This document shows, piece after piece, positions 1,432-19,880 of a DNA stretch of 62,712 bases. Origin of the DNA: Tepidisphaeraceae bacterium (lineage in GTDB: Bacteria > Planctomycetota > Phycisphaerae > Tepidisphaerales > Tepidisphaeraceae); the NCBI GenBank assembly GCA_035998445.1, contig DASYHQ010000020.1, positions 1 to 62,712 on the forward strand. The letters run 5' to 3'. Position 1 is the first letter of the stretch; the number at the start of each line of letters is the position of its first letter. The notes under the pieces were generated by a model. The model saw nothing but the letters and a program-made list of their open reading frames with translations. It was not told the origin of the DNA and did no database searches. The position numbers and the translations under genes were made by a program.

Positions 1432-2943
1432 ATGGCGATGGGTCTAGGCGGTGCGCAACGCCCAGCGTTCTTGTCAGTCGGCTTGCTTGTAATGCCCCTT
1501 CTGGCCACAGCGCAGACCGCGTTCGGGCAGGTGTCACAACACATCGTCGCTGCCACGGGCGATGCCGCACCTGGCGGCGGACGATACGGAGACCTGTCAG
1601 GCTTCCGCTACGCAATCAATGATAGCGGTCAAGTCGCGTTCTGGGCCACGTTGGTCGACACGGACGCCCAGTCTGCCATCCTTCGGTCCGACGAAGCCAG
1701 CACGTTCGAGATCGCGCGAAACGTGCAGCAAGCGCCCGGCGGCCCTGGCACGTTTTCGGAGTTCGCCGGTCCCCTCTACCTCAACAACGCTGGGCAAGCC
1801 GCCTTCGCCACGTCTCCCGGGCGCAACGTGTATCGTGGGGACGGAGCGACACCCGTCGTCCGCGTGGCGTCCTCACTGATCTACGATCGCTACGGCTTCA
1901 ATGCACTGGGCCAGGCCGCCACGTACACCGGCGAGACGATCAAGCGCGGCAACGGTCAGTCGGCCACGACGATCGTCAACGTGGGCCAGCAGACGCCGGG
2001 CGGGGCCGGTACTTTCTACGGGGTCTTCGGCGCGTGGATGAACGACGCGGGACGCGTCAGTTTCTTCGCCACCATTACCGATGCCCCAGGTGGCAACGAG
2101 GAGAACGAGGGGCTATACCATGGCGACGGCACCACGCTCGTCGAGGTCACCCGTGAGGGACGCGCCACGCCCAGCGGCGTCGGCGTGTACGCTTCGCTAT
2201 TGCACGGGCAGATCAACAACGCTGGACGGACCGCCTTCGGCGCTTTGCTGCGCGGGACGAACACGGCGAGCGATTGGGGCCTGTTCGCGGTGGACGCCGA
2301 CGGCACGGCGCACGAGTTGGCACGCACGGGACAGGCCGCGCCGGGCGGCGGGTCGCTCGTCTACGCGTCGGCGCACTTGAACTCGTACTCGCACAACAAC
2401 GCGGGACAGATGGCGTTCACGGCGGCGATCTCATCGTCGGTTGGCGGCAATCCTCAGCAGCACGGCCTGTTCGTGTCGGATAACGGGGCTCTGACGGAAG
2501 TGGTACGCTCCGGCTCGCTGACGCCCGATCCGACGCGGCGCTTCACCGGCATCGGCGCCGGCTCCATGGCCTTCAACGACGTCGGCGACATTGCGTTCCT
2601 CGCGTCGATCGCTCGGTCGGACGCGACCGTGTGGAACGTGCCGCCGGACACGCGCAGCGCCCTCTACCTTTACACGGAGGGCGCGCTGGTCGAGGTCGCC
2701 CGCACCGGCGATCCGCTGTTGGGCAGCACGATCAACTTCCTGACCGTGGCGCCAACGGTCGGCTCGATCGGCGACGAATCGAGCGGATTAAACGACCAGG
2801 GGCAACTGGCCTATTATGCGCGATTGGCCGACGGGCGAAGCGTGCTGCTCATGGCAACGGCCGTTCCCGAACCGACGGGCATCGCGGTGGTGGGCATTTC
2901 GGCTGCCGCCACCCTGCTGGTGCGACGTCGACGGAAGTCGTGA
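1432..2943 (+). CDS. Secreted PEP-CTERM protein with repeated beta modules
   Basis: 503 residues. The ATG at 1432 is preceded by TGGAGGGAC. A Sec signal peptide (LSVGLLVMPLLATAQTAFG) is followed by six or seven diverged modules of about 55-65 residues, each built around a phrase such as APGG.G.F / LNNAGQAAF / VNDAGRVSFFATI. This repeat type occurs in planctomycete choice-of-anchor proteins. The C-terminus is a PEP-CTERM sorting signal: VPEPTG, a hydrophobic helix (IAVVGISAAATLLV), then RRRRKS. In this system an exosortase processes the tail at the cytoplasmic membrane and the protein is exported to the envelope or matrix. No catalytic residues are visible. Confidence 0.88.
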   Translation: MAMGLGGAQRPAFLSVGLLVMPLLATAQTAFGQVSQHIVAATGDAAPGGGRYGDLSGFRYAINDSGQVAFWATLVDTDAQSAILRSDEASTFEIARNVQQAPGGPGTFSEFAGPLYLNNAGQAAFATSPGRNVYRGDGATPVVRVASSLIYDRYGFNALGQAATYTGETIKRGNGQSATTIVNVGQQTPGGAGTFYGVFGAWMNDAGRVSFFATITDAPGGNEENEGLYHGDGTTLVEVTREGRATPSGVGVYASLLHGQINNAGRTAFGALLRGTNTASDWGLFAVDADGTAHELARTGQAAPGGGSLVYASAHLNSYSHNNAGQMAFTAAISSSVGGNPQQHGLFVSDNGALTEVVRSGSLTPDPTRRFTGIGAGSMAFNDVGDIAFLASIARSDATVWNVPPDTRSALYLYTEGALVEVARTGDPLLGSTINFLTVAPTVGSIGDESSGLNDQGQLAYYARLADGRSVLLMATAVPEPTGIAVVGISAAATLLVRRRRKS

Positions 2944-3050
2944 GCGCGCAGCCGTTGCGTCCCTCTGCCCCTCCCGGCCGAGGCGGCACAATGGCGGGCG
3001 TGGCCGGCGCGGTGGACGTGATTCACCAGATGGCCTGACAGGAGTGAGCG

Positions 3051-3452
3051 TTGGAGGATGCTGATATAGCGTCGACGACAGGAACCGGTCACGCGCCACC
3101 ACTTGCATACGCGACCGCAACGCGCCCCCGTACGCCGGCCCGCACCTGGGGCAGGGTCTTTCTGGCCTCCGGAGCCTATGTGCTGGCGTGCATCCCCGTT
3201 GTCCTCGTTTTCGAACGGCTCCATTGGGAAGACGCCATTTTGCACATCACGTCGTTCCTCGCGTGCTGCGCGTGTGCCGTAAGTGCCCTGATGTACGTCC
3301 AAGCCGGTCGCACGCCCGGCGCCGGTTACCAAACGAATAGCGTGGTGTACAAGCTCGCCTGTTTGGTGATCCTGCTGACGGCAGCCGCCGTATTAACGCT
3401 AGGCGTTTTCTTCGTGCTGGCTGCCCGGATGATGCGGGACTTCGATAGCTGA
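3051..3452 (+). CDS. Small integral membrane protein, unknown function
   Basis: 133 residues from a TTG start at 3051, with AGGAG 6-10 nt upstream. A soluble N-terminal stretch of about 33 residues is followed by three predicted membrane helices: VFLASGAYVLACIPVVLVF, ILHITSFLACCACAVSALMY and KLACLVILLTAAAVLTLGVFFVL. The C-terminus is short (AARMMRDFDS). No family is recognised. It is separated from the PEP-CTERM gene by about 107 bp and from the next gene by 114 bp, so it is probably monocistronic. Confidence 0.72.
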   Translation: MEDADIASTTGTGHAPPLAYATATRPRTPARTWGRVFLASGAYVLACIPVVLVFERLHWEDAILHITSFLACCACAVSALMYVQAGRTPGAGYQTNSVVYKLACLVILLTAAAVLTLGVFFVLAARMMRDFDS

Positions 3453-3566
3453 AACACCCCAGGCCATGGACCGCCCCCGCATCGCGCGTTCTGGTAAACT
3501 GACAGCCGGCGGGTGCGATGCCGGCCAGCCCGTGAAGGACGAATCGCTAACTGTTCTGGAGACGCC

Positions 3567-4019
3567 ATGTCGGTCAAGCGTATGGACAACGTCGGCATCG
3601 TGGTCGAGGACCTCAACCTCGTCATCGAGTTCTTCACCGAGCTTGGCCTCGAACTTGAGTGGCGCGGGCCCATCGAAGGTAACTGGGCAGGCGGCGTCAC
3701 CGGACTGCGCGACATGCGGGTCGAGATTGCCATGCTGCGAACGCCGGACGGTCACAGCCGGCTCGAGTTGTCCCGGTTCCTCGCGCCGCCCGTGGTCGCC
3801 GATCACCGCAGCGCCCCGGTGAACGCGCTCGGTTACCTGCGCGTGATGTTCACGGTGGAGGACATCGACGATACGCTCGCCCGGCTCGGCAACCGCGGCG
3901 CCGTGCTGGTGGGCGAAGTCGTTCAGTACCAGGACGCGTATCGGCTCTGTTACATCCGGGGCCCCGAGCGGATTCTCATCGGGCTCGCCCAAGAGATCGG
4001 GCAGCGGACCTCCAGATGA
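3567..4019 (+). CDS. VOC (glyoxalase/bleomycin-resistance) superfamily protein
   Basis: 150 residues from the ATG at 3567. It has a typical vicinal-oxygen-chelate layout with two beta-alpha-beta-beta-beta modules. The first is MDNVGIVVEDLNLVIEFFTELGL followed by VEIAMLRTPDGHSRLEL. The second is NALGYLRVMFTVEDIDDTLARLGNRGA followed by YIRGPERILIGLAQE. Members bind a divalent metal and act as dioxygenases, lyases or resistance proteins. Near the usual metal positions are E43-type, H-S-R-L-E-L (the HSRLEL strand) and P-E-R, so metal binding is possible. The substrate cannot be inferred. Its stop overlaps the next start by 4 nt. Confidence 0.88.
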   Translation: MSVKRMDNVGIVVEDLNLVIEFFTELGLELEWRGPIEGNWAGGVTGLRDMRVEIAMLRTPDGHSRLELSRFLAPPVVADHRSAPVNALGYLRVMFTVEDIDDTLARLGNRGAVLVGEVVQYQDAYRLCYIRGPERILIGLAQEIGQRTSR

Positions 4020-4653
4020 GCACCGTGCGGCGGGGGCACATTGTGAGACGACACTTGTTCACCCTCTGCTCGGCCCGCTCGCTGCTGCTGTGCGTTGCGG
4101 TGTGCGCCCTGTGGGTGCGGAGCTACTGGGTTGATGAGAGCGTGACGATCAGGTGGGACAAGCGCGTGACGCTGGAGCAGTCGCTCCGCTACGCTCACGT
4201 AAACTACGGTGCCTACTCCGGTCGGGGGTACCTAATGTTTAACCGTACGTACAACCATCGCCCGACCGCTGACGCCCGGCCTCAGCCGTTCCGGGTCAGA
4301 TGGAAGCGTCGCCGTGATGAGCCGATACGCACGATCGGGCTGTACGGGTTTGCCACCGAAGTTCAGGATTGGGGACCGTTCTGCTGGGCGGTGCACGCTT
4401 CGTCGACCAGCGGGCAGTGGGCGGCGGCGCGGGCAGGCGACCCCCACTACCGCGTCGACCGGGCCTTCGACGTGCCCTACTGGCTGATCGCGTCCCCTGC
4501 CACCCTGCTGCCGCCTGCGTGGTTGTGGTCAGCGTTTCGCCGGTCCCGAGACCGCCGCGCGATGGCCACTGCCCCACCTGCGGCTACAACCTCCGCGCCA
4601 CCCCCGCCCGCTGCCCCGAGTGCGGCACGGGGCGGGGCGAGGCGGTAGAGTAG
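4016..4653 (+). pseudogene. Membrane protein with C-terminal double-CxxC tail, apparently frameshifted
   Basis: The reading frame opened by the ATG at 4016 encodes an N-terminal membrane helix (ARSLLLCVAVCALWVRSYWV), a soluble domain and a second hydrophobic stretch (PYWLIASPATLLPPAWLWSAF). It then degenerates into Ala/Pro-rich sequence and stops at 4648. In the -1 frame the last 30 residues read RDGHCPTCGYNLRATPARCP and then ECGTGRG, the zinc-ribbon tail typical of planctomycete proteins with this same N-terminal architecture. The two halves join between about 4540 and 4562 (around gaccgccgcgcgatgg) if one base is missing. Either the gene is recently broken, or this is an assembly or sequencing deletion. 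The start overlaps the VOC gene stop by 4 nt. Confidence 0.7.
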
Positions 4654-4720
4654 ACGTTGTCGATCGACGCTACTTTCTGATACTCAGCTGCTGGCAGGCG
4701 ATTGGCCGTGAGGTGATTCG

Positions 4721-5482
4721 ATGAATGACCAATTCCTACCCACCTTCGTCCCCGCGACTGCCGAGCAGATCCTCGAGATCGTTCGCGACGAGCACCGGAT
4801 GCAGTCCTGGCTGGACCCGGAAGCGGATCCGGACGCGGTCCTCGGCCGCCAATCCAGCAGCGCCCAGTGGCGCGACGCCTGTGACCTGCTTCCGTGGCGA
4901 CCGCTGGCAGCGGCCTTGAACGCCGCGTGGCAACTCGACATCCCACTATCACAGTGGCGTGCGGTCCTCGATCCGTCGGAGGCTCGGACGCTCGGCGGCG
5001 TGTGCGACCTGCTCGCCACGCACGGCGCGCGGTTGCCGCGGGTCCGCCCAGCGACGTTACTGGGCACCCGCTGCGTCCCGGCGGGCGTGTTCCTGACGGT
5101 CCGCTCGTACTTGGCGCAGGCCGGTGCCGACGTGGGGGACGTCGCGCCGTCGACGCCGCTGGCCGGATACGCGCGTCGACATGCGGCGGTCTTCCTCGGG
5201 CCGGTCGCACGGCTGGTGCCGGGGGCACTGCCACGCGTCCGCATGCGCCAGCCGATCCACGACACGGCGTTGGCGGCGCTGCTGCTGTCGATGCTGGGGA
5301 TCGCCGTCGGGTACGTCGGCGACTGGGACATGCTGACGATCCTCTCGACGCTGGCGGCGGCGGCCTCCTACACGGGATCGTGGGTCGCGGCGCTATGGGT
5401 GAAGCCGGCGCGCGTGGAGTTCGAGGGGCTGCGGACGTTCGGCGACTTATCGCTCGCGCTCGCCGCACGCGTGAGGGTTTGA
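4721..5482 (+). CDS. Hypothetical protein with C-terminal membrane segment
   Basis: 253 residues. The ATG at 4721 is preceded by GAGGTGATTCG. About 180 soluble residues (DACDLLPWRPLAAALNAAWQ, TLGGVCDLLATHG) are followed by hydrophobic helices around residues 183-200 and 208-228 (TALAALLLSMLGIAVGYVG and MLTILSTLAAAASYTGSWVAAL). It then ends in a short basic tail. No domain is recognised. It is the last gene before the accessory region, and the following 340 bp to the tRNA fragment contain no gene. Confidence 0.7.
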   Translation: MNDQFLPTFVPATAEQILEIVRDEHRMQSWLDPEADPDAVLGRQSSSAQWRDACDLLPWRPLAAALNAAWQLDIPLSQWRAVLDPSEARTLGGVCDLLATHGARLPRVRPATLLGTRCVPAGVFLTVRSYLAQAGADVGDVAPSTPLAGYARRHAAVFLGPVARLVPGALPRVRMRQPIHDTALAALLLSMLGIAVGYVGDWDMLTILSTLAAAASYTGSWVAALWVKPARVEFEGLRTFGDLSLALAARVRV

Positions 5483-5749
5483 CGAGCGAGCACCACTGCT
5501 CGGCCTGAGCGCGAGCGACCGACGTCTGCGTCACAAGAACGCCGCATCCCCCCTTTCCGCACCCCTTCCCATACGGCCCCCCGATCCGGACACGGTTGTT
5601 AACTGGAGCGAGGAGATAGAGCGGAGAGACCGAGAGTTCTCAGGTGCGGTAGGCCGGGAGGGTCGAACGTGGCCTAAGAGCGGCGCCCTCTCACTCCCTC
5701 TCTTCATCCCGGCCGGAGCGAAAACAGCCAAATTCTAGCCCGAAAACGA

Positions 5750-5782
5750 GCGAACCCCGCTAACTCAGTTAACAGGGTTCGC
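5750..5782. terminator. Hairpin with 8-bp perfect stem
   Basis: GCGAACCC at 5750-5757 pairs with GGGTTCGC at 5775-5782 around a 17-nt loop that itself contains GTTAAC. There is no long T-run on the plus strand. It sits between the last chromosomal gene and the tRNA fragment, so a terminator or att-associated structure is possible. Confidence 0.4.
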
Positions 5783-5824
5783 CGTGAACTATTATAACAC
5801 ATTACAGGAAAAGAAGTTATGAAG

Positions 5825-5866
5825 CTCGGCAGGTAGGACTCGAACCTACAACGAGCCAGCTAACAC
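5825..5866 (-). other. 3' fragment of tRNA-Asn(GTT), probable attachment scar
   Basis: Read on the minus strand, a T-arm with a perfect 5-bp stem and TTCGAGT loop (GTAGG / CCTAC, 5849-5833) is followed by a 7-nt acceptor 3' strand CTGCCGA and G. Upstream of it are a 5-nt variable loop and an anticodon loop GTGTTAG, which reads anticodon GTT with U33 and A37. The 5' side breaks off here: the opposite anticodon stem is imperfect, and no D-arm or matching TCGGCAG acceptor strand follows. This is the expected product when a tyrosine recombinase integrates into the 3' half of a tRNA gene. The flank on the left would be original chromosome and the element would extend to the right. The intact tRNA is not in the window. 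Confidence 0.62.
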
Positions 5867-6218
5867 CGGGCACGGGCAGATTCGGGTTTCGTAACCGCCG
5901 GATGCGAGATCACAGGGACAGAGGACAGTCGTGATCCAAGTTCAGTAAAAAAAGCTCATCGAAGCCAAGATGATGCGCGATCCCTTGTCGAAGGGAACCT
6001 CCCTTAGAAGTGAAAGACCACAGAGGGCAACGTGTATGCGCCGTGATGCCCTAAGCAGGCGAACGGCTCTCCCCTTCACTGCTGCCCGCATCACTCATGG
6101 AACTTCCGTCTGCCGGTGCCCGTTCGCCGGCCGTTTCACTCGCTGACTTGCGAGGGATCACCAGTCGTCACTGCAGCACGCGAGTGTTAACATACGAACG
6201 CAACCTGACCGGCGTTCC

Positions 6219-6234
6219 TGTGCGAAATTGCACA
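6219..6234. repeat. TGTGCA-N4-TGCACA palindrome, copy 1 (one mismatch)
   Basis: TGTGCG AAAT TGCACA. The left half-site differs at one base from the consensus shared by the other copies. It is the outermost member of the set at the left end of element A. Confidence 0.65.
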
Positions 6235-6594
6235 GCTGACGCGTATAGTCCCTCAATGGACCGAAGTCAGGAAATCAACGTGCAGTCACAATGACTCGCC
6301 AACTCGTGTGTATCACTGGTCTTATGACAGTTAGCCCTCTCGACGCCATTTTGGCGAAGAGATCGCCCTGCCAATGTGGCAATTGTCGACCATTACGAGA
6401 CTTACGGCGACGCATACCAAGTCGCGGCGTAAAGGGCACGGGTCGCGCGTGATGTCGACGGATCGGTTACCTCGCTGCTGCTCGTTTCTGAGCACCCGAT
6501 TGCATGCGTGCGGGCCGCGGATTGGCCTAAACGGGCTCGCTTCGTCCGGACCCGGACATCCCGCGTGGGCACGGCCGGACCCCTTGCTTTACCC

Positions 6595-6638
6595 TGTGCA
6601 TAAATGCACACCCCCACCTGTGCAAGTTTGCACAGGTG
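6595..6638. repeat. Two adjacent TGTGCA-N4-TGCACA palindromes
   Basis: Perfect copies at 6595-6610 (spacer TAAA) and 6619-6634 (spacer AGTT), with starts 24 bp apart. The second extends to 10-bp perfect arms, CACCTGTGCA and TGCACAGGTG (6615-6638). A dimeric DNA-binding protein site or origin iteron is the natural reading. Confidence 0.75.
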
Positions 6639-7280
6639 AGATCCGAACGCCGCTTGGTGCCTTGTTACACGCGGTTGAAGCCGCGCGGGTAGCCGTGGCC
6701 ATAGAAGCGCTTCGGGCTCACGGCGGAAGGGCTTCGACCGTTGGCTTGCGCTCGTTGACCACACCGGCCGCTCGCATCTTCGCGCGGGCGCCAACGCCGA
6801 TCATTCACAACTCACCTAGATGCGCGCCAGGCAGAGGTCCGATTGTCGCCTACGGGGTTGAGTTCCGGTGATGGCCAGGGTCATCGCGCCGGCGCGCACT
6901 CGCCGGTTCGGGGGTCGTTGCTCCCGATCAAAGCAACGGCATTTAGGTAAGCAGATGGGCGATCACCCGAGACGGATGCAGAGGGGCGCAGGTACGTCCT
7001 CGGGCTAATCAAATAAGGGTTCGGCACGAGCGGAACGCAGTGGAACGGATCCAGTACGGCCGTTAAGATGGCGGTCGCGAGGCCGCCGGCGTGCGTGGCC
7101 GGATCGCCGAGGCATCATCGCGTCCCTCCGCGACCACGGTCTCCGCGCGAAGGTGGTCCGCCTCCTGATCCCGCGGGTCGGGCGACGTTCTGGGGCGTGG
7201 AGCGCGTGTACGCTACGCGCGGGATGGCCTGCTCGGATTTGAGCACCCCTGCCCGCTCAATTCTGAGCACCGTATGCAGC

Positions 7281-7310
7281 TGTGCACGCACGCTTGTGCA
7301 TTCTTGCACA
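7281..7310. repeat. TGTGCA-N4-TGCACA palindrome plus an extra half-site
   Basis: A perfect copy at 7295-7310 (spacer TTCT), with an additional TGTGCA half-site at 7281-7286. It lies 168 bp from the 3' end of the primase-like gene. Confidence 0.7.
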
Positions 7311-7477
7311 CACCGTCACCCAGCCGTCGCCGTGCAAGCCGTTTGTTCTCACCTCAGTCGGCGGCGTCAGTCGAGCTGGATTCGTCGCCCGGCGACCTCG
7401 GTGTGCGTACAGTCTCCTTCTTTCTCGACCCAACCCCGTGGCTGGCGCGTAAGACGGTTGGACGTGAGATCGCACGT

Positions 7478-9541
7478 TCATCCGTTGGGCACTAATTCTA
7501 GTTTCAAGTGGCCGCTCGGTGGCTCCGGCCTGCCCAACGGCCACGGGTCCCCACCGTTCGTCCATGGGCCGGCGACGGTCTCGGGAGGCCGGCAGGTCGC
7601 TCCGGGACCCCATACAGTTTGTGAATAGAGAACGCTGTGGGCGGGAGCCACGGCTTCGCCCAAGGCCAGGGGCAGTTCGACGGCGCCGACCGCGTAACGG
7701 CGGCAATACCCCTCGCCCACTTTCGACCCGTCGTCCTCGAACGCACCGGAATTATAGGACCGGCTTGTGCACGTCATCGCGCCGAGGTGCATCAGCAGCC
7801 GGATCGCGTCGGCGACCGCGCGGCCGCTCGTCCGACACCTGAGCGACCGCAGCATGCCCCGGAAACCGGCCGTCGGTATCGGCGTCCCGGCGTGAATTTG
7901 GCGACCGCCGAACCCGGTAGCCTCCAGTGTGGCCGCCTGGGCCTGCTGACGCGCCCGCACGACCTCGGGGATGGCCCCCGACTGCCACAGGGCCTGGTTC
8001 TTCCGCGCGGTGAGGAACACGACCGCCGTCCCGCGGTACGTCGACGTCCCGAGGTCGGCGGGCCGCACCCCGCGCCCTTTCAACTGCTCGATTACTATCT
8101 TGATGTCCGCCTCCGTGAACCAAGTCGGTGCCCCCAAGCCGTTGGTCGCCTCCAGTTTAGCGCGGCGGACCGCCAGGTACCGTTGGACGTCGAACGCGAC
8201 GACGGCGGACGCTCCGTCGCGGAAGTTCAAGAACCTCACCTCTGCGCGGCGGCCCGCGTTGCGGAGCCGGGCGCGACGCTTGGCGTCACACGGTCGTCCC
8301 TCGCCAACGTGCTCGTCGTACAGCCGCTCGGCGAGTTCCTCGGCGTACCGGCCGCCGGTCGCCCGGAGGACGGCGAACACGATTCCGTTCGCCTGCTGGA
8401 CCTTGTCTCCACTGCGAACCATCTCGGCGATCCGCGGGGTGAAGACGCCGCTCGTCCCGCCCGCCGTTCCGCGACCGGTCCCGAACTCGTCCGCGTCGTC
8501 CAGGGCGGCGAGCCGCCGGATCTCTGCCATCCGTTCACCCCATGCCTGCTGGGACGTACTTCGGGCAGGCACGACGGCTCGGGACTGGCCGCCCGTCAGT
8601 AACTCGGTGAGGTCGCCTACCGTTAATGGAGCTGAGCGTTCAAACCAATCGGCGCACGCTCGGAGGCGGCCGCGTGCGACGGACGAGGGTTCGTCGGGTC
8701 GGTGGCAGCACGGGGCGAGCACCGTCGCGTGGTGGCCGACGCGTGGCGCCGTACGGCACTCGAGTCTTTCGCACCGGTGAAACCCTTCGTCGCCGTACCG
8801 GTGGGCGTAGACGTCATAGTGATTCGCGCGGGTGTCGACGTACGCGTGGTCATTGTCGGCCCGGTAGAGGTATGACAGTTCGGGCGGCACGCGGCGGCCG
8901 TCGGTCGGCCACGGCCGGGTCCGCACCCGTTCGGCGGCGTAGGCGGGGTCGTAAAGGGGGTTATCGACCGTCGCCTCGCGAACGCCAGCGAACGCCTCGA
9001 CGACCGGGCTGTCGCCGAATCCCTGTGTACACCTCGCCACGATGGACTCGCCGATCCCCCGGAGCCACGCCGCTCGCTCGGCGACGCGCAGGTGCGAGGC
9101 GTCGACCAAGAGGTACAAGCTGGCGCCTGTGCTACGCGACGGGCAGACGAACCCGCGCCCGCCGAGCACCTCGCGGTTGACGCGGTGGGCGTACGCGACC
9201 GCGCGGTCGGCGCTCGACGCACGTTTGTCGTCGACGTCGAGGCGGTGGAGCGTGACCGCCCCGCCGTCCCGGCTAACGAGGAGCAACACGCGTCGGCTGG
9301 TGGCGTGGGCCGCGAACGACTTGAACGTGAACGTCCGCGGGAAGCGGCGTCCGTCGCGGACTATGGGACGGGGGTCATCGTACGTGTTCTGCCGGTACGG
9401 GCCGTCGCCGGACGGGGTGGCCTGCCAGATGTCCTCGACGTCCACGATCGCGCGGAGCGCTTTCCACAGGCGACGGAGGTCACGCTGGGTGCCCGGGCCG
9501 AAGACGGGTTGGTCGAGGATCTCGGGAGGCTGCACGAACAC
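7478..9541 (-). CDS. Primase-like protein (divergent AEP motifs), element A
   Basis: 687 residues, paralogous to the 28.7-31.1 kb gene along most of its length. After an N-terminal helical segment (DLRRLWKALRAIVDV) come a strand with acidic pair LDVDDKR (D102, D104) and then PSRSTGASLYLLVD (residues 134-147). This order resembles motif I (DxD) and motif II (S-x-x-G-x-x-H) of archaeo-eukaryotic primases, with Ser141 where the histidine is expected. The middle contains C..C/H residues (FHRCERLECRT, APCCHRP) that could bind zinc. The C-terminal part is shared with B (STYRGTAVVFLTARKNQALW, TSRSYNSGAFEDDGSKVGEGYCRRY). The likely role is replication initiation or priming for the element. The start is GTG at 9541, with no clear ribosome-binding site. 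The family assignment is an inference. Confidence 0.6.
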   Translation of the reverse strand: MFVQPPEILDQPVFGPGTQRDLRRLWKALRAIVDVEDIWQATPSGDGPYRQNTYDDPRPIVRDGRRFPRTFTFKSFAAHATSRRVLLLVSRDGGAVTLHRLDVDDKRASSADRAVAYAHRVNREVLGGRGFVCPSRSTGASLYLLVDASHLRVAERAAWLRGIGESIVARCTQGFGDSPVVEAFAGVREATVDNPLYDPAYAAERVRTRPWPTDGRRVPPELSYLYRADNDHAYVDTRANHYDVYAHRYGDEGFHRCERLECRTAPRVGHHATVLAPCCHRPDEPSSVARGRLRACADWFERSAPLTVGDLTELLTGGQSRAVVPARSTSQQAWGERMAEIRRLAALDDADEFGTGRGTAGGTSGVFTPRIAEMVRSGDKVQQANGIVFAVLRATGGRYAEELAERLYDEHVGEGRPCDAKRRARLRNAGRRAEVRFLNFRDGASAVVAFDVQRYLAVRRAKLEATNGLGAPTWFTEADIKIVIEQLKGRGVRPADLGTSTYRGTAVVFLTARKNQALWQSGAIPEVVRARQQAQAATLEATGFGGRQIHAGTPIPTAGFRGMLRSLRCRTSGRAVADAIRLLMHLGAMTCTSRSYNSGAFEDDGSKVGEGYCRRYAVGAVELPLALGEAVAPAHSVLYSQTVWGPGATCRPPETVAGPWTNGGDPWPLGRPEPPSGHLKLELVPNG

Positions 9542-10237
9542 GTCACGAGACGGCCACCGTAACGGGCAGTGGCCGGCCGTTCCTGAAATTGCACGGTGGA
9601 CCCCATCGTCCGCAGTGCGGGCCTGCTCAGCACCGCAAGTTCACGAATCGCGGCGGCCGGTGACCAGTAGGACTTATCGGCGACCGCTGGTCGGTCGCTT
9701 TACCTGTTAAGCTGAGGGCTATGTGCCTGCCAGAGGCTCAAAGATGCGGCGGCCAGGGAAAACCGCTCCTCCCTTGCAGCGATTCGCCCGTCCTGAGTCA
9801 GGTACAAGGGCGGAACGCCGACAAATGAACTCCGTAACGGAAGAGCGCTAACGAAACGGTTCAGCTTGGAAAGTGGGATTTACTCTCACGTGAGATCGCG
9901 GACCATACGAAGCTCCCTCCGGAACGAGTTGACGAATGCGATCAAACGACCGACAGGCGGGCGCGTCGCGAAGGCTCGCGCCCACAACGGATGCCGATCG
10001 GATGGAAGTCGTTCCATCGCTAGACCTCGGTTCATACGCATCCGGACGACCTCCGCTGCTTCGGTCCTACGGCGTCAGGTCAGCCGACGACCAAGCGGGC
10101 GGTGGCATTAGCGCGTGCCATTCCTTTTTCACGTGCGCCGGGCTGTAGCCCCTTGGTCGTTTCTTCCGATACCAAGTACGCCAAGCGGGCGATTCATGTT
10201 GTATCCAGCCGCTAAATTCTGCAAATTGGAACTTCCC
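9542..10237. other. Gene-free 0.7 kb between primase gene and kinase locus
   Basis: No open frame here has a credible start site or composition. I see no strong hairpin or repeat. It must hold the promoter of the leftward primase gene and of the rightward small gene at 10238, but neither is obvious. Confidence 0.4.
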
Positions 10238-10483
10238 ATGCCTTCCATCCTGCCATCGCCTAACGTTTGGGATGAAGTTACCGGGGCAATAGCCATCGTT
10301 TCAAGCCTATCGCCCGTGCAGCGAGCCTACTGGTCAAGTCGGCTGACCGACCAACGCGAGCGGTTGACTGCGGCCCTAAAAGCGATGGATCCCACAGAGC
10401 GCGGCGCCGTCGAATACGTGCTCGACCAGCATCTTCACGCCGTAGTCAGCTCGTTCTTGCAAGCGGTGGCGGAGAAGCGGTAG
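10238..10483 (+). CDS. Small helical protein upstream of kinase-HD
   Basis: 81 residues (MPSILPSPNVWDEVTGAIAI...). The ATG at 10238 is chosen because the sequence upstream of it is compositionally unlike protein; an earlier in-frame ATG exists at 10196. The product is almost wholly helical, with amphipathic segments SPVQRAYWSSRLTDQRERL and ERGAVEYVLDQHLHAVVSSF. No motif is recognised. It ends 76 bp before the kinase-HD start, in the same direction, so the two may be functionally paired even though the kinase gene seems to have its own promoter. Gene reality is moderately supported. Confidence 0.5.
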   Translation: MPSILPSPNVWDEVTGAIAIVSSLSPVQRAYWSSRLTDQRERLTAALKAMDPTERGAVEYVLDQHLHAVVSSFLQAVAEKR

Positions 10484-10547
10484 AAAAACCGCGTTGGGGC
10501 GGCATATTTTGGCGAACGTCTCGGTCGTCCCCGCGCGCCGCGACTGC

Positions 10548-10560
10548 TAGAATTGTGGGA
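10548..10560 (+). promoter_or_regulatory. Extended -10 promoter, predicted leaderless start of kinase-HD
   Basis: TG-C-TAGAAT (TGn at 10545-10547, hexamer 10548-10553) ends exactly 6 nt before the ATG at 10560, which places the expected transcription start on the A of the start codon. No good -35 is visible, as is normal for extended -10 promoters, and no Shine-Dalgarno sequence fits. Confidence 0.6.
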
Positions 10561-12884
10561 TGGCTAAACGCCCCGCTCGCCGGCAAACTTCGACGCCTAC
10601 GCTTCCTCTTTCTGGGAGCTTCCCTCACTATCTCTCCGCGATCGCCAGGGATCTGAGTCGCCGCTACGCGTTCGGGGGTGAGGCCGGGCGAGGAAAGACG
10701 GGCGCGGCTTATAAAATCGTCGACGTGCACACGGATCGCCCTTTCTGCCTCAAAACTTGTTCGCCCGACGTGACGGACGCCGCCGGGCGGGAGCAAGTGC
10801 GTGAGACGCTCTCCACCGAAGTGAAAATCCTGCGGCCGTTGAGCCATCGCTGCCTGCCGGCCATTTACGATGCCCAACTCAAAGCCGAGTTGCCTTATTA
10901 CGTTTGCACGTACCACCCCGGCGTGACGTTCAAACGATTCAGGCTCGAAGGTCGGAAGCTTCCACTGCGTGAGTCGACGTCCGCGATCTGGTCGCTCTTG
11001 GACGTGATGAAGTACCTCCACAATCAGGATCGGCAGCACTGTGACCTTCATTCCGAGAACGTCATGATCAGCCCTGAGGTGTTCCGGGACGGCATTATGG
11101 TGATCGACTTCTCTTCCGGCCACCGCGGTAGTGACAGCTCGCCCGACACGTTCAACCGGGGTAATTTCGCATTCAAGCCAGTTTCCGACCAGCCGCAGGC
11201 GGGACGAAGGGTCACCCGCAAGGTGACGCAGTTCGAGCAGTACGATTTCGCGGGCCTCGGCATGCTGCTGGCTCAGATGAAGGACTCCTTCTTCGCCGGC
11301 GCATCGCGCCAATCTCAGTCCGCCTACGTCGACTTTTGCGGAGCCCTCCGAAATGGCGATATCAACACATGGGACGCAATTGAGGACCGCTTTCTGACGG
11401 TGCTAGACCCGTATCGTATATGGACGGGCAATGCCGATCTCTTTACCTCCGCCGACGGCGGTCCACAGGCAATTTCGCTGCCGGCCGGCGTCGGCGTGGC
11501 CGTGGGCGTGGCCCCGCTGGCCGTTGTAAACACGTCCGCGTTCCAGCGGCTTCGGGGTATTCGCCAACTGTCGTTTTGCGAGTGGTTCTTCCCGGGCGCG
11601 AGCCACACGCGGTTCGAACACTCCCTCGGTGTGTTCGGCCGGGCGAAGTCGGCAATCGAATCGCTCGTGCACGACCGCGCCTTCCGCGACCTGCGTAGCG
11701 TCGCCCAGATCCGCGGCTTTCTACTTGCAGCGCTCGTTCACGACGTCGGTCATTACCCGTTCGGCCACCTCGTGGAACAGTACGCGGCCAGCCGCCTGTG
11801 GAAGTCCGCCGCCGCGAAGGAGGCCGCGTCTCACAGCCGCCACTCGCTGTGGCTTATGGATAACGACGAGGAATTACGGACGGCAATCGACGAGCACTGG
11901 GGACCGGAAGCGAGACTGAACGCCCGGCGGACGTTGACCAAGCAGGTGCCCGTTCTTTCCGAACTCCTCGACGGCCCGATCGACATCGATAAGGTGGACT
12001 ATCTCGCCCGCGACGCGGTCCACTGCGGCGTGCCGTTCGGCGCCGGCCTCGACGTCTCCGGACTGCACCGCGCCCTACGCGTGGTCCACGGCGGCCACCG
12101 ACTCGGGATTGAGTCCGCTGGGGTGCCGGCGGCCGAGGGCCTAATGGTGTTGCAAGATCAGATGTTGTCGTCCGTTTACTGGCACCCCACGATCCGCGGC
12201 CTCATATGCATGTTTCATGGCGTGTTGGCCAATTTGGTTAGCAAGGACGAAGCGCTGTTCAACGGGCTGGTCGAGGAACTGAAGCGGTGTACGAGTGAGG
12301 ACGATGCGATCCGAAGCGTGTTACGCCCCCGTGTGGACATGCTGCCGAAAAAGAAACGCGAATCGGTCCAACGGCTCCTCAGCCCGCTGGTCCGCCTCAA
12401 ATTTTCGGATATCTACGTCCCAACTGTCACGTACGCGCCGACGGATCCCCCGCCGGAGCACCTGCCGTCGGACAACGCGTACCGGTCGATCGTCAAGGAT
12501 TTCACGCATACCGAGTCCACCGCTGCCGAGCCGGTTAACTGGCATAACGTACGTCGACTCCGCACGGCCTACATCGCCGCGCTGATCGAGATGGGCCAGC
12601 CCGCTGACGACCTCCACGTCGTCATCGACGTCCCGTATGGCAAGTCGTCGCGGCAGAACTTGATCGTGTACAGTGACCGGACCGGGGTCGAGAAAGACAT
12701 CACGGACATCTCCCATCTAAAGGAGACAATCTTCACCATGCCCGCGACGTTTCTCTCTCCCGTCCGCGTCTATCTCGCCCCGGAAATGCACGCCCCGGTG
12801 TCCGAGCGAATCTCTCGATTGCGCCAGCGCGCGGAGGAAATCTTCTACGAACGACGCCCGCTAAACGATCACGCCGACGAGTAG
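10560..12884 (+). CDS. Protein kinase-HD phosphohydrolase fusion protein
   Basis: 774 residues. Residues about 35-290 form a eukaryotic-like protein kinase: a Gly-rich region FGGEAGRGKTGAAYKI, the VAIK-type lysine in FCLKTC, the catalytic loop HCDLHSENVMI (Asp161 and Asn166 region) and a DFG-equivalent VIDFSSG (Asp183). Residues about 310-620 are an HD phosphohydrolase of the COG1078/SAMHD1-dGTPase type: FQRLRGIRQLSF, HTRFEHSLGVFG (His near 350), ALVHDVGHYPFGH (HD pair near 394) and DIDKVDYLARDAVHCG (Asp near 478). The last 150 residues are of unknown fold. Separate family knowledge says SAMHD1-like enzymes hydrolyse dNTPs and dGTPases can protect against phage. The fused kinase could sense infection or regulate the HD domain. 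It is cytoplasmic, cargo of element A, and absent from B. Confidence 0.88.
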   Translation: MAKRPARRQTSTPTLPLSGSFPHYLSAIARDLSRRYAFGGEAGRGKTGAAYKIVDVHTDRPFCLKTCSPDVTDAAGREQVRETLSTEVKILRPLSHRCLPAIYDAQLKAELPYYVCTYHPGVTFKRFRLEGRKLPLRESTSAIWSLLDVMKYLHNQDRQHCDLHSENVMISPEVFRDGIMVIDFSSGHRGSDSSPDTFNRGNFAFKPVSDQPQAGRRVTRKVTQFEQYDFAGLGMLLAQMKDSFFAGASRQSQSAYVDFCGALRNGDINTWDAIEDRFLTVLDPYRIWTGNADLFTSADGGPQAISLPAGVGVAVGVAPLAVVNTSAFQRLRGIRQLSFCEWFFPGASHTRFEHSLGVFGRAKSAIESLVHDRAFRDLRSVAQIRGFLLAALVHDVGHYPFGHLVEQYAASRLWKSAAAKEAASHSRHSLWLMDNDEELRTAIDEHWGPEARLNARRTLTKQVPVLSELLDGPIDIDKVDYLARDAVHCGVPFGAGLDVSGLHRALRVVHGGHRLGIESAGVPAAEGLMVLQDQMLSSVYWHPTIRGLICMFHGVLANLVSKDEALFNGLVEELKRCTSEDDAIRSVLRPRVDMLPKKKRESVQRLLSPLVRLKFSDIYVPTVTYAPTDPPPEHLPSDNAYRSIVKDFTHTESTAAEPVNWHNVRRLRTAYIAALIEMGQPADDLHVVIDVPYGKSSRQNLIVYSDRTGVEKDITDISHLKETIFTMPATFLSPVRVYLAPEMHAPVSERISRLRQRAEEIFYERRPLNDHADE

Positions 12885-13322
12885 CGTGTTGATGACGTGG
12901 TCGAGTGGCGCAGCCGGGGGACATGGACCGTCCATGACTACGGTCACGCCGCGAACGTGGTCGTCCGGGACCAATTCCCGGCCGGGCGAAACGTAAGCCT
13001 TAGCAAGGTTGACTCTTAGTTGTAGCAAGGCACCGGCAACGCTTAAGTGAAAACATGTAACGTACGTTCCCCGGCTCTACCCATCGTCACGCCATGACGG
13101 CCCTGCTAAATCGGTGCGCTATTCCTCGGCACGAACCGTCGAATTGGCGACGAGGTCGTGCCTTTCTGCCCGCACCCGTATCACGCCCCACGGACGTAAA
13201 AGATCCACGTCCATCGTGAGGTGCCCCTACCCCCACCTGCCCGAGTCCGTGCGAGATGTGCTGTGCGGTGCAACCTCAGGAATGCACCCCGCCCGTTGCC
13301 AGCGACAAAGGTCATCTAGAGA

Positions 13323-13360
13323 ACCGGCAGGGGCATCGTTTGCCCCACGACCCTGCCGGT
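13323..13360. terminator. Bidirectional terminator-like hairpin between convergent genes
   Basis: ACCGGCAGGG (13323-13332) pairs with CCCTGCCGGT (13351-13360), and the inner bases GGGCA / TGCCC extend the stem. It lies between the 3' ends of the kinase-HD gene and gene X. The rest of 12885-13413 shows no gene. Confidence 0.65.
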
Positions 13361-13413
13361 GCTAACTGTCTCGAACAATCGTGATTTACCGCCAGCAATA
13401 GACGTGTCGATTC

Positions 13414-14700
13414 CTACGCAAGCACTTCAGGGCCAACGTAGGTGTTGGTTTCGATAGCCTTTGCCAATTTCGGCGCTTCGTGAATCAGATGGAGCACCAT
13501 GCCGTCTCCCCATTCCTGAGCGAGCATTCTCAACTGCTCGGTCGCTTCATTGATCGTGTCGCAAACTTCCGTTTCGTGGCCGCCCGTCTCGGGGTCTGGC
13601 TGGTTCGCCACGTCGCACTGCACATGCGAGATGATTCGCCCATCCGCGGTCTCGCCGAGGTATCCCCGCTTGTAAGCGATCGTCTTCCGATGAGCCATCG
13701 GCATCCGGACCACGCCGAGGAGCACTGGCTCACGCGCGCCCTTGCCGTTGTCCGCATAGAGGACCATTCCCTCGTGCACGTCCGCCGGTCTCAAGTTGGC
13801 GAACTCTTCATCCGACGCTGCCCACCAGTCTATCGGACGTCCAGAATGAGTGGCTTTGCTGCCGCGTCGTTCGCCGCACTTGCGGAACGCCTCTCCTGTT
13901 ATTCGGGCGAGATGACGCTCGTCTCGCCGCGGCCACCGCTCGCCGTCACCGGCGATCGTGTCGCGAACGACCATCGCCCAGCAATATTTCGCAGCGTCTC
14001 CTACCGGCGTGTGCGCCACAGCAACCCCGTCCGCCACGAGCCCGCGCTTGTAAAGTTCGGTGGACAACCGATGCAGCGCCACCCATACGATGTTCTCCAT
14101 ACCCCATTGCAGGTCGCGACCTCGGTCGTGAGTTACTCCCCCGAACAATGCCAACGTGCAGCCGGGAGCCGTTAGGCCGGCCAGCGATGGGACATCTGCG
14201 CGCCTCCTCGCGAGCCGGCCCGCATCGCTCACGCTCAGCTGCACGTCGGTCCGCTGCTCGTGGCCAAGCATTGCGAGTTCCGCGACCGCCGCGCGGATCG
14301 AATCGGTTTTCGCCGTGGCGGACACCGCGAAACGGACCGCCGGCGACGACGTTTTTGCCGACGTGACGTCCTCGGCAATTGCAACCTGCATGGCAAGCTG
14401 CTTGGCGACGTCATCGCCTTGCCCGAGAAATCCCCGCATCGTCAACCCGCCCAAAAGCGCGGCAAGCGAATCCGCGATCATCACTCCGAGTTCGGTTCCG
14501 ATCCGCGCGAGGTACCGGCCGTCGACGGCCTTTCCTAACACGACCGGAAGATGAAACGCCGACTCATCGGCGGACCAGTAAACGGCCGCAAGCTCTCGCT
14601 CGACCGTGATGACCTCCTCTTTCGACGCGGCGTTGAACGGGGCGCCCAGCGATGACGCGACTAGGCGTTCGCCGGGGAAAAATTGATCGGAAGTGCTCAT
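13414..14700 (-). CDS. Element core protein X, copy A (unknown function)
   Basis: 428 residues, the same length as its paralog at 38507-39793, and alignable along its whole length. The ATG at 14700 follows GGAGAATTGAC. No known domain is recognised. Conserved blocks shared by both copies include ITVERELAAVYWSAD, GKAVDGRYLARI, MVVRDT followed later by DERHLAR, MPMAHRK(T/A)IAYKRGYLGETADG, and a C-terminal GDGM.LHLIHEAPKLA..IET.TYVGPEV. The composition is that of a soluble cytoplasmic protein. Its promoter is shared in design with gene XII, which suggests co-regulation. Conservation in both elements despite different cargo suggests a core element function, not cargo. Confidence 0.75.
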   Translation of the reverse strand: MSTSDQFFPGERLVASSLGAPFNAASKEEVITVERELAAVYWSADESAFHLPVVLGKAVDGRYLARIGTELGVMIADSLAALLGGLTMRGFLGQGDDVAKQLAMQVAIAEDVTSAKTSSPAVRFAVSATAKTDSIRAAVAELAMLGHEQRTDVQLSVSDAGRLARRRADVPSLAGLTAPGCTLALFGGVTHDRGRDLQWGMENIVWVALHRLSTELYKRGLVADGVAVAHTPVGDAAKYCWAMVVRDTIAGDGERWPRRDERHLARITGEAFRKCGERRGSKATHSGRPIDWWAASDEEFANLRPADVHEGMVLYADNGKGAREPVLLGVVRMPMAHRKTIAYKRGYLGETADGRIISHVQCDVANQPDPETGGHETEVCDTINEATEQLRMLAQEWGDGMVLHLIHEAPKLAKAIETNTYVGPEVLA

Positions 14701-14761
14701 GTCAATTCTCCGAAAAAGGGCTCACGTCACCGCGCGACTTGAACCGAACGATGTTCTAAGA

Positions 14762-14780
14762 CGCAACCAACTCAGTTGCG
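14762..14780 (-). promoter_or_regulatory. Conserved hairpin in the 5' leader of gene X (copy A)
   Basis: CGCAAC, a 7-nt loop, then GTTGCG. The same 6-bp stem occurs upstream of the B copy of gene X (39853-39870). Its conservation among diverged flanking bases suggests an RNA structure in the roughly 200-nt leader, or an operator. Confidence 0.5.
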
Positions 14781-14909
14781 GCCGCGGCACGTGAGGCGGC
14801 GCGCGGTGCCGGACGTACGTGCTGGCCGATCGGGGGCGTCGTGCGACCACACGTCCAATGGCGTAACCAAATCCGTCAGATGCCATACCCTGAACCAAAC
14901 GGCCGGGGT

Positions 14910-14953
14910 ATCATCTCCATGGGATGAAGGTTGTCAGTGTTACCTAGTGATAC
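14910..14953 (-). promoter_or_regulatory. Promoter of gene X, copy A, with tandem heptamer activator site
   Basis: Read on the minus strand: heptamer GTATCAC (14953-14947), spacer TAG, heptamer GTAACAC (14943-14937), then TGACA completing a -35 CTGACA (14937-14932), a 16-bp spacer and a -10 GATGAT (14915-14910). The 26 bp from 14930 to 14955 are identical to 40020-40045 upstream of the other gene X copy, in a background that has otherwise diverged. Distance to the gene X start is 232 bp, against 229 bp in B. An activator bound to the direct heptamers next to the -35 is the simplest model. Confidence 0.72.
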
Positions 14954-15199
14954 TTTCGCGGTAACTGGCAACAGGGCTAGTCGCGGCCCGCGGGGCGCGC
15001 TTCGGTCCTGCCGTATGTTGGTGCAACGCCTTTCGATGACGCAGCCGCACGTTGAATTAGTCGCTCAACATCTTGTTTGGCAGAGCGTGAATCCATTAGG
15101 CCCCGCGAGAGGTTCGGCTGACATCGACGGCGATCGTTACCAGTAGATCTATCCGCGTCGACACGACGGTTTCCCGAGTCTGACGCCGCAGTTATCGTC

Positions 15200-16117
15200 A
15201 TGGCGATGCGTAGACAGAGCACACCCAAGACAATGAATCTCGAATTACCAGCGCGCTCGCGCAGAGCCAACTCGCCCATCGGCATGGATCAGTTCGTCGA
15301 GGCCGCGCATTGGGCGGACGCCACGTTGGCCCAAGTCGACGAATACCTGAGAGACGTCTCGGGCGGCATCGTAGACCGCTTCGGGCGGCCCACCGAGGGC
15401 GAGCTTCGCGTTGATTTCGATCGCGTTTGGGAACGCTGGGAGGAGATGGTACTCGCCGATTATGCGGAGGCAGACCGCAGGCTGCTCGCGGTCGATGCGG
15501 CACGACCTGCGGCATATGAACATATCGTCACTAGCGCTGAATGGGTCATCGCCAAGCGCGGTGACGCACCGATCCTATTGGCTGACCGAGCCTACATCAG
15601 CGCCCTCGCCTTTTGCTCGCGAGTCGTGAGTTTCGTGTGGTCGCGACGCCCCATTTGGCGGTGGACCATCACAAGGAACAAACAGGAACGGCTGATCGAT
15701 ACGCCCGTGACTCTATCCGAGCAACGCGGAGTCTCGTTCCTGAGTCGGCTCTGCAACGGGGGCGTGACCCCGTCCGGTCTTCGCATAATGCGCCGGCGGG
15801 TCACCTCAGAAGCCGTCGCCACTTTAGCCGCATGGCCAAATCTTTATGGAACTCCGGTCCCTCAAGAGCACGGCGTGTACGGCGCAATATGTCGCGTGCT
15901 CCGAGAACGAGGTCCCCTCCACACCGAACCCTTGCTCAGCGCCGCGGGTTACACGAACGCGAAGCCGGTACTCGCAGCCCTCGTTGACATGGGATTGCTA
16001 GTCAGCGACCGGAAACGCGGATATTCGCTCCCGCCGCGTCCGAACGTGCCAGGCCTCTTCTTGCCCACGATTAATTGGCCACAACTCGACAAACATCCGG
16101 AGTCGCAAGGAAAGTAA
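15200..16117 (+). CDS. Element core protein XI, copy A, C-terminal winged-helix-like
   Basis: 305 residues from the ATG at 15200. An alternative ATG at 15284 (MDQFVEAAHWAD) matches the start of the B paralog (MDQKKITSVAGWAD) and may be the true one; neither has a clear ribosome-binding site. The N-terminal half is helical (ADATLAQVDEYLRDVSGGIV). The C-terminal block EHGVYGAICRVLRERGPLHT...NAKPVLAALVDMGLL.....GY.LP has the helix-helix-helix-hairpin pattern of a winged-helix DNA-binding domain and is the best conserved part. It could be the regulator of the X/XII promoters, but this is inference. It is followed 660 bp later by gene XII. Confidence 0.68.
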   Translation: MAMRRQSTPKTMNLELPARSRRANSPIGMDQFVEAAHWADATLAQVDEYLRDVSGGIVDRFGRPTEGELRVDFDRVWERWEEMVLADYAEADRRLLAVDAARPAAYEHIVTSAEWVIAKRGDAPILLADRAYISALAFCSRVVSFVWSRRPIWRWTITRNKQERLIDTPVTLSEQRGVSFLSRLCNGGVTPSGLRIMRRRVTSEAVATLAAWPNLYGTPVPQEHGVYGAICRVLRERGPLHTEPLLSAAGYTNAKPVLAALVDMGLLVSDRKRGYSLPPRPNVPGLFLPTINWPQLDKHPESQGK

Positions 16118-16609
16118 CATCAAAAATCCATAACGACGTTTACCGTTGATAACATACCCGGTATCGAATGGCATGCCGCGCGCCACTAGTCCCCTCGGCC
16201 GCCACGCATGCGGACGCAACAGGTCTACTGGAGCTACTAAATGGTCTTTGTTGAGGAAGACGTTGTCATGGCACGATAGGCGAGCGGCTCGAACATCTTC
16301 ACTTCCAGCGAACCAGGGTGGGTCCCCCACATGCGCGAGGGGGCTTACGGTAGCTCATTGAAACTCTTGCAAGCGACGTCGCGTGCCCGCAGCCTGCCGG
16401 ATGTCGAGCGTGCCGTAGATTATGCCAACACAAATCCCCGAGACATCGGACGGTAGTTCGAAGTCTTGAGGAAGAACTTAGCGCCAGAGCGAGCCCGATG
16501 ATGGTGCGGCAATTGCCTCGAGTTTGCAGTGAGCCTTAGGGTCGCGGCGAATTTCAATTCGCTAGAAGATAGCCAATCGACGACGCCCGATGTTATTGGC
16601 GCTAGCTAA

Positions 16610-16631
16610 CTGTCACTCAGTGTCACTGACA
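16610..16631 (+). promoter_or_regulatory. Promoter of gene XII, copy A, tandem heptamers
   Basis: CTGTCAC (16610-16616), spacer TCA, GTGTCAC (16620-16626), then TGACA (16627-16631) as part of a -35. The layout equals that of gene X and of the B copy of XII. The -35 lies 147 bp before the XII start, against 145 bp in B. The -10 is weak (CCATCT or CATCTT), as expected of an activator-dependent promoter. The remainder of 16118-16777 shows no gene. Confidence 0.65.
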
Positions 16632-16777
16632 CGGCCGACCGCTTAGTCCATCTTGCTCTCCGTCGATCGCGGGTTCAATGCTTAGGGCTTGGATCGGACA
16701 TCGCGAAGCCGAGCGTCGGCCTTCGTCCGTCAAAGATCCGCAAACGCCGTGACCCCGCTCGTCGAAGGAGAATCGAC

Positions 16778-17947: not shown

Positions 17948-17976
17948 CTGGCTCGACGCTCTCGCCCTGCCGCGAG

Positions 17977-18011
17977 CGTGCCACGGAGGCATAAGCCGCC
18001 TCCGTGGCACG
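17977..18011 (+). terminator. Strong hairpin after gene XII (A)
   Basis: 14-bp perfect arms (CGTGCCACGGAGGC / GCCTCCGTGGCACG) around the 7-nt loop ATAAGCC, 30 bp after the stop. An equivalent hairpin with different sequence follows XII in element B. The next 480 bp to 18496 hold no gene I can support. Confidence 0.75.
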
Positions 18012-18496
18012 TGTCAGTCGCAGGCCCGGGTACGGCAAGGACGACATCACATCGGACGCTATTTTTCGCCGAGTACGCTGTCCCTACTACCGCCGCGCGG
18101 CCACGGTCTAGGACGGACGGTGGTAGCGGTCGCTCGGACCGAAGTCGCCAAACGTGCAAACGATTGGCGTTGCAGAGATCGAGAGCGGGACCGCAGGCGT
18201 CGACCGGTCGGCGCAGCGAATGTCCGGTACAAGGGCACCGGTCGACCTCGGGATGGAACGCGGAATAGTCCTGCCGCTGATGTCGTCGCAAGCCTGGAGA
18301 GACCGGATGGCACGATAGGTGTAACGCCCACATCGAGGAAGTGATCGAAGCATTCGGGGTGGCCCCAGCGGATGCAAGGACGAGCCGATAATTCGCCGGT
18401 GATCCGGTGGACGTCGGTTGCAAGATGGATATGGTATTCATGTGATCCGCCTAAAAGCTCTGCCGGCTCACAGTCGCGGCGGAGTTCTAGAATTTG

Positions 18497-19508: not shown

Positions 19509-19880
19509 TCACGGGGCGGTCCGGGCCCATGCCAGGTAAGCGTCGACCAACCGCGCGACGGTCATCTGCTCCGGTGAACGCTTGAGATCACCTGGCGTTC
19601 GCCCCGTCGCCAGCCACTGCAAGACGGTCCGATGATACTTTGTAAAACTGTCGGGCGAGTTAGCCCGCCCGAGGTAGACCATGCGACCGTCGAGGCGAAC
19701 GTACCCCAGTCGCTTCGCTTTGTGGACGCGATAGGCCGGAACGGTCGGGCCGGTGTCCGGTACATCGCCCGGGTGGCGCCGACTTCGAACGCGTACATCC
19801 AGCGTTTGCCACTTGGCCCCGTCAGCATCGTTTCCGTGCGAAACGGGCTCACCGCCCCAAGTCCGACTTTGTTGCAACAT
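19509..19880 (-). pseudogene. Truncated tyrosine recombinase, element A
   Basis: 123 residues matching only the N-terminal arm-binding part of the integrase at 51730-53097: VPAYRVHKAKRLGYVRLDGR, MVYLGRANSPDS and LVDAYLAWAR are shared nearly word for word. The core-binding and catalytic domains (R, H-x-x-R, Y) are absent because the frame stops at 19509 in unrelated sequence. The start ATG at 19880 follows GAGGTGAGCAG. It is the last gene of the RadA operon, 27 bp after the Gam-like gene. Loss of catalysis means A would need another integrase (for example from B) to move. Confidence 0.8.

Follow-up and report, generated by a model that had tools for sequence, protein, structure and literature searches.

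Repeated TGTGCA-N4-TGCACA palindromes 3′ of primase-like genes in two integrated elements of a Tepidisphaeraceae genome: a candidate replication origin

What is the role of short palindromes that are repeated beside a primase-like gene of an integrated element and are nearly exclusive to such elements? This question is raised by contig DASYHQ010000020.1 of a Tepidisphaeraceae bacterium, which was analysed over its entire length of 62,712 nucleotides (contig C20, the window). It carries two integrated elements, A and B, and at the left end of each lies an array of palindromes of the form TGTGCA-N4-TGCACA. An earlier reading made from the letters of this DNA (the sequence-only reading) took the repeats of element A for an origin or for operators of an element-encoded dimeric protein. 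Our results indicate that the palindromes are likely element-specific sites for a dimeric DNA-binding protein that is encoded by the elements. As to their function, we tentatively read the array as a replication-origin or initiator-binding region that is served by a protein common to A and B and absent from a third element, C, of the same genome.

The palindrome, designated type-1, is a 16-bp dyad, and mismatches were counted over its 12 arm positions. The assembly comprises 5.84 Mb in 64 contigs and is 95.5% complete, so that a site may have been missed. Exact copies are found at four positions of the genome, 6595–6610, 6619–6634 and 7295–7310 in element A and 27920–27935 in element B. Equal frequency throughout the chromosome had been named as the outcome that would speak against a special role; instead, all four exact copies are on this contig, and the reversed pattern that served as a control has none. 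When one mismatch is allowed there are seven sites genome-wide, five of them in the window (control: two). With up to two mismatches the window contains eight sites as compared to 1.62 expected, and at least eight were seen in none of 100 dinucleotide shuffles. The inexact copies in A are TGTGCG-AAAT-TGCACA at 6219–6234, with one mismatch, and a weak site at 7273–7288, with two mismatches and a matrix score of 2.9; those in B, at 27888–27903 and 27958–27973, have two mismatches each. At three mismatches scattered sites turn up elsewhere in the window. Assuming independent and even placement, the chance of finding all four exact copies on this contig is about 1e-8, and of finding them in the left-end stretches of the two elements about 7e-14, both figures being post hoc. 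A matrix trained on six sites (6219, 6595, 6619, 7295, 27888 and 27920) puts the site at 27958 next with a score of 12.5; after it the best score is 5.1 for the window and 6.1 for 40 kb of contig C8, which carries element C. Element B thus has three sites (27888, 27920 and 27958) within 86 bp.

The recurrence of the palindrome at the left end of A, as first described, is thus borne out by three exact copies and one with a single mismatch (6219). The same holds for the copy said to have 10-bp arms: the site at 6619 extends over 6615–6638, with arms of 11 bp on either side of a 2-bp centre, which corresponds to 10 bp per arm when the centre is taken as N4. The statement that the 16-bp design returns at the left end of B needs correction in part. 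The copy at 27920 is exact, but the one at 27888 carries two mismatches, and the site at 27958, as well as 7273 in A, had not been listed.

All eight sites with up to two mismatches lie within two left-end stretches that are non-coding according to the GC content of codon positions, and none is located in the coding cores, in agreement with the first reading. The stretch of A (5870–7477) has little codon-position GC contrast and that of B (27300–28687, left edge approximate) has no clear one, whereas the contrast is strong in the primase-like genes. The arrays therefore sit in non-coding stretches of 1.4–1.6 kb that lie 3′ of the primase-like genes, which in both elements are on the minus strand, read toward the array and end before it (A: 7478–9541, 687 amino acids; B: 28688–31078, 796 amino acids). 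The palindromes are 175–1251 bp from the primase-like stop codon in A, the exact copy at 7295 being the one at about 175 bp, and 722–1224 bp from it in B. The two proteins have diverged to 44–48% identity depending on the alignment (47% in the pair alignment).

Repeat analysis of the stretch of A revealed a second dyad, TGCTCA-N4-TGAGCA (type-2), with identical geometry (16 bp, N4). Element A has three copies with one mismatch each: TGCTCG-TTTC-TGAGCA at 6479–6494, TGCTCG-GATT-TGAGCA at 7230–7245 and, 24 bp from the latter, CGCTCA-ATTC-TGAGCA at 7254–7269. The sole exact copy in the genome is in element B, at 27456–27471. Since type-2 was first spotted in A post hoc, the copy in B is an independent check. 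At up to one mismatch there are 19 type-2 sites genome-wide (control: 15), five of them on this contig and four in the two stretches; type-2 is not enriched in the genome as a whole, only in the stretches of A and B. A further one-mismatch site (24572) is inside an open reading frame (ORF), and sites with two mismatches are found at 27500, in the stretch of B, and elsewhere in the window at 40899, 55811, 58531 and 60324. Each type also occurs in A as a pair of sites 24 bp apart (type-1: 6595/6619; type-2: 7230/7254). Note that by blastn (E ≤ 1e-3) the stretch of A has no similarity to the window from 27801 onward (27300–27800 was outside this comparison), and yet both motif types recur. Dyads of the 6-N4-6 form in general, with up to one mismatch, number 21 in the stretch of A as compared to 10.0 expected.

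Which protein could recognise these sites? Element C, found with the profile of the element ATPase, occupies about 2.3–18.1 kb (2260–18070) of contig C8 at another tRNA-Asn-like fragment. It has genes for a full-length tyrosine recombinase, a Gam-like protein, a RadA-like ATPase and a ribbon-helix-helix (RHH)-like protein; no primase-like gene was found in it. The 40 kb of C8 that were scanned contain no type-1 site at up to two mismatches and no type-2 site at up to one. Because C has the RHH-like protein, the integrase and the ATPase without a TGTGCA dyad, the dyads do not track any of these three. The RHH protein had been put forward as a possible binder, and this proposal is disfavoured by our data: the RHH-like protein of C is 93.6% identical to that of B, and judging from this comparison it is a poor candidate. 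Four proteins that A and B have in common gave no match in C at E ≤ 1e-3, namely the primase-like protein and the products of the gene pairs 13414/38507, 15200/34096 and 16778/35133. An element-encoded binder would probably be among these four. The primase-like gene is the nearest of them to the array in both A and B, and the binder would most simply be the primase-like protein. For the 13414/38507 protein no relatives were found in 197 other genomes.

A related explanation is that the palindromes are sites for maintenance, segregation or transfer (partition-like or origin of transfer (oriT)-like), bound for example by the RHH protein. At their right ends A and B do each have a small RHH-like gene (22718–23002 and 56138–56422, respectively). 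Moreover, for plasmid pLS20 it has been proposed that the RHH proteins Aux1 and Aux2 have a preference for TGGTACCA and for three TGTGCAT repeats in oriT (PMC5675868). These repeats and a GTAC-centred inverted repeat, likewise a proposed site there, echo TGTGCA and the GTGTAC-N-GTACAC sequence of the elements studied here. However, the pLS20 repeats are direct and ours are inverted pairs, no relaxase was found among 40 ORFs of the window scanned with Pfam at E ≤ 0.01, and the presence of sites does not follow the RHH-like protein. The label RHH itself was given by eye: there is no Pfam match or significant PDB match, and the protein of B has weak matches to PHROGs repressors (E 0.049 and 0.16). 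We consider this explanation unlikely.

The left ends of the elements raise the question whether the palindromes could be accessory recombination sites, i.e. arm sites of an excisionase or integrase. The left end of A is a 3′ fragment of tRNA-Asn recognised by homology (5829–5869, minus strand); 78% homology to tRNA-Asn plus its 3′ flank spans 5581–5869, and an intact tRNA-Asn is on contig C23. A 31-bp quasi-palindrome, L (GCGACCACnGTCT...GAAGGGGGTCGC), is found at 7131, 28249, 33757, 36643 and 43294, the copies at 33757 and 36643 being more diverged. Its inverted form, R, is at 23147 and 56554, and end motifs are also present at both ends of C (2313 and 18039 of C8, L016). GTGTAC-N-GTACAC, or a variant with one or two mismatches, lies about 75–147 bp from each L or R motif, and in all three elements this sequence or a one-mismatch variant follows the RHH-like gene. 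At up to three mismatches the L/R pattern occurs at nine places in the genome, seven of them in C8 and C20 (control: none). All three elements share this end structure, which is distinct from the TGTGCA array. The palindromes are indeed near the tRNA-Asn fragment in A and near the L motifs at 7131 and 28249, as arm sites would be. Their position relative to L ranges, however, from 107–172 bp inside to 904 bp outside, and C retains the integrase, the L/R motifs and the tRNA fragment without having a TGTGCA dyad. A role in recombination is therefore improbable. Two further observations concern the ends and the integrases. Element B combines a single R with four L copies of the same orientation, which looks as though modules headed by L had piled up one after another. 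The integrase of A is just a 132-amino-acid piece (19509–19907) matching the N-terminal part of the integrases of B and C, and because of this reduction A can probably not move on its own.

As 16-bp dyads whose 4-bp centre is mostly AT-rich, the palindromes have a shape that is usual for operators, and phage-like operators commonly comprise several sites, which would fit binding of an element-encoded transcription factor, either a repressor or an activator. The surroundings of the sites argue against it. The primase-like gene ends, and does not start, at the array, and no recognised gene start adjoins the palindromes; the nearest ORF start on the left side of the array of B, at 26773, lies some 680 bp from the type-2 site at 27456. 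No sigma-70-type promoter was found in 5500–7700, which is weak evidence, since chance alone would give 0.3 and the scan was confined to this promoter type and to the stretch of A. Elsewhere in the window there is no type-1 site (up to two mismatches), and the one-mismatch type-2 site at 24572 lies within an ORF. An operator role is less likely because of the lack of recognised gene starts beside the sites, and we regard it as an unlikely, though still credible, alternative. Of the original proposal, then, the common part is supported, as the sites are element-specific, repeated, dyad-symmetric and placed alike in A and B and accompany the primase-like gene, which fits binding by a dimeric protein of the elements; its operator half is the weaker one. 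A different sequence of A and B is a possible operator: an imperfect palindrome, AGTGTTAC-CTA-GTGATACT, in a conserved non-coding stretch (14907–14961 in A, 39997–40051 in B) upstream of the 13414/38507 gene.

Host functions were considered as well, namely DnaA boxes, transcription terminators or repetitive extragenic palindromic (REP)-type repeats. One arm of the site at 6595, TTATGCACA, fits the DnaA-box consensus TTWTNCACA. It is the single arm of the array that does so, and the window has two such sequences as compared to 0.97 expected. The 6595/6619 pair folds strongly as single-stranded DNA (z −5.73). Nevertheless, no terminator-like site was found in 5500–7700 of A (1.6 expected by chance), and REP repeats would spread genome-wide, which type-1 sites do not. 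These explanations are very improbable.

We return to the array as a candidate origin or initiator-binding region. It is the best reading because of the precedents of three known systems together with the co-occurrence pattern in A, B and C. If this is true, a dimeric protein of A and B that is not used by the rest of the genome would bind the 16-bp TGTGCA dyads, and perhaps the TGCTCA dyads too, so that several dimers gather at the array. The primase-like protein, or a partner that A and B likewise share and that is missing from C, would then start copying of the excised element. Judging from gene directions, in a circularised element, with the left end joined to the R end, the RHH-like gene (plus strand) and the primase-like gene (minus strand) would converge on the array.

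The position makes an origin plausible, since the documented origins of phage-inducible chromosomal islands (PICIs) lie 3′ of the initiator gene and such a place has been suggested for that of pRN1. In PICIs the origin directly follows the 3′ end of the initiator gene (PMC6092414), and our elements resemble the pri-rep-ori arrangement of these islands in being integrated and in having repeated sites 3′ of a putative primase or initiator gene. Unlike PICIs, they have dyads, no AT-rich region in B and an initiator family that is not recognised. For pRN1, an essential stem-loop 3′ of the gene for a primase-type Rep protein is described, and the origin is suggested to lie there (PMC4234260). As in the pRN1 family, a cis element follows the gene for a primase-type replication protein, putative in our case; however, it is a stem-loop of about 100 nucleotides there and separate 16-bp dyads here. 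In the phage-inducible chromosomal island-like element (PLE) of Vibrio cholerae, RepA is described as acting at semi-palindromic iterons (PMC8263062). The likeness is in a few semi-palindromic repeats within a non-coding stretch of an integrated element; the PLE iterons are, in contrast, about 30 bp long and are bound by a RepA_N protein, and the primase-like pair has no Pfam match to RepA_N.

Several observations weigh against an origin. The first group concerns the primase-like protein. Searches of Pfam, NCBIfam, PHROGs and PDB sequences gave no significant match to the pair, which leaves the label primase unsupported and the recognisable primase or Rep of PICIs without a counterpart. Profile searches detected no RepA_N, primase or superfamily 3 helicase domain, and no significant match to the winged-helix domain of pRN1-type Rep. 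Structure models were too poor to help (pLDDT 33 for the whole protein of B and 41 for the N-terminal part of that of A), and the latter model gave no Foldseek match at E ≤ 0.001; such models count neither way. By eye, the strand-helix order near the DVD and SR..GAS motifs in a poor model presumably resembles the core of archaeo-eukaryotic primases, a likeness on which we do not rely. Moreover, three other proteins fit the same pattern of presence in A and B and absence from C, and the co-occurrence sample consists of two elements with and one element without the dyads in a single genome.

The second group concerns the array. The spacings between palindromes (24, 19, 22, 32 and 38 bp) do not have the regularity of iterons. 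There is no clear AT-rich melting region flanked by two iteron sets as in PICIs: between the two site groups of A (6700–7200) the AT content is 27–38%, at 6200–6400 it is 46–49%, and the richest 50 bp reach 60% in the stretch of A, near the tRNA end, and 50% in that of B. Just 3′ of the stop codons, where pRN1 has its large stem-loop, no unusual stem-loop is present (DNA fold z 0.04 in 7316–7460 and −0.39 in 28540–28687). In B, the end-like L motif at 28249 stands between the cluster and the primase-like gene, leaving the cluster on its outer side, and the two may thus not share a unit. The stretch of B has no general excess of 6-N4-6 dyads with up to one mismatch (17 as compared to 17.1 expected), and its three exact ones (1.2 expected) were matched in 21 of 200 shuffles. 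Two type-2 sites with two mismatches are found in C8 (3316 and 17297), the contig of the element without the array. Finally, the stretches of A and B have 54 common word segments of at least 9 bp as compared to 32.9 in mononucleotide shuffles, and the recurrence of the motifs could partly be residual common descent.

As dyads repeated 3′ of a putative initiator gene, the arrays belong to a kind already known. It is doubtful, though conceivable, that the system is a new replication module, combining an initiator family without relatives outside this genome in the searches made and an origin of dual specificity, with TGTGCA and TGCTCA dyads interleaved 3′ of the initiator gene, on tRNA-Asn-integrated elements that share the 31-bp L/R motifs. 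Relatives of the primase-like pair were found neither in 60 relatives and 391 other genomes of the phylum nor in the genome_contigs, viral_contigs, plasmids and phages collections, the collection scans being seeded by short peptide patterns and best at reaching close relatives. In the open-access library that was searched, none of the retrieved titles or beginnings of abstracts gives an account of such an array.

Outside this genome, exact type-1 sites are present in 29 of the 391 other genomes of the phylum sample, 40 sites in total with nine in a single genome; of the 25 other genomes of the family sample, two have one site each. The nine sites of that one genome (G197) apparently belong to a repeat of its own, as at the five listed places the cores are TACC, TACA and TACT on one strand. 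The ATPase profile retrieved distant copies in three genomes, G286, G005 and G008, with a Gam-like gene close by in G005 and G008 and none seen beside the copy in G286. The stretches around these ATPases (41.9, 60 and 45 kb in G286, G005 and G008, respectively) gave no primase-like match and no type-1 cluster; they have scattered sites with up to two mismatches, one each in G005 and G286 and three in G008. One of the three in G008 is exact (C84:16736) but was taken as chance, since a 740-codon ORF contains it and the tRNA next to the integrase is about 4 kb away. In viral_contigs the ATPase and integrase profiles matched nothing, and a scan for the extended motif gave 14 contigs with one exact site each. 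One IMG/VR viral contig (L029) has type-1-like dyads at 1980 and 2079, 99 bp apart, one of them with one mismatch.

Regarding the remainder of the elements, a RadA/Sms-like ATPase (21307–22632 in A, 54697–56040 in B) together with a nearby Mu Gam-like gene forms their conserved core. Element B also contains genes for a Type I restriction-modification specificity protein and methylase (47594–51018).

If the array is an origin, it would give a direct handle on the replication of this group of integrated elements, and the primase-like protein, with no recognised relatives, could be tested as a new initiator. Further members of the family may be sought in metagenomes with the 16-bp dyads as a cheap marker. 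Even if the dyads form a mere binding array, the likely element-encoded binder is narrowed to the four proteins present in A and B but missing from C.
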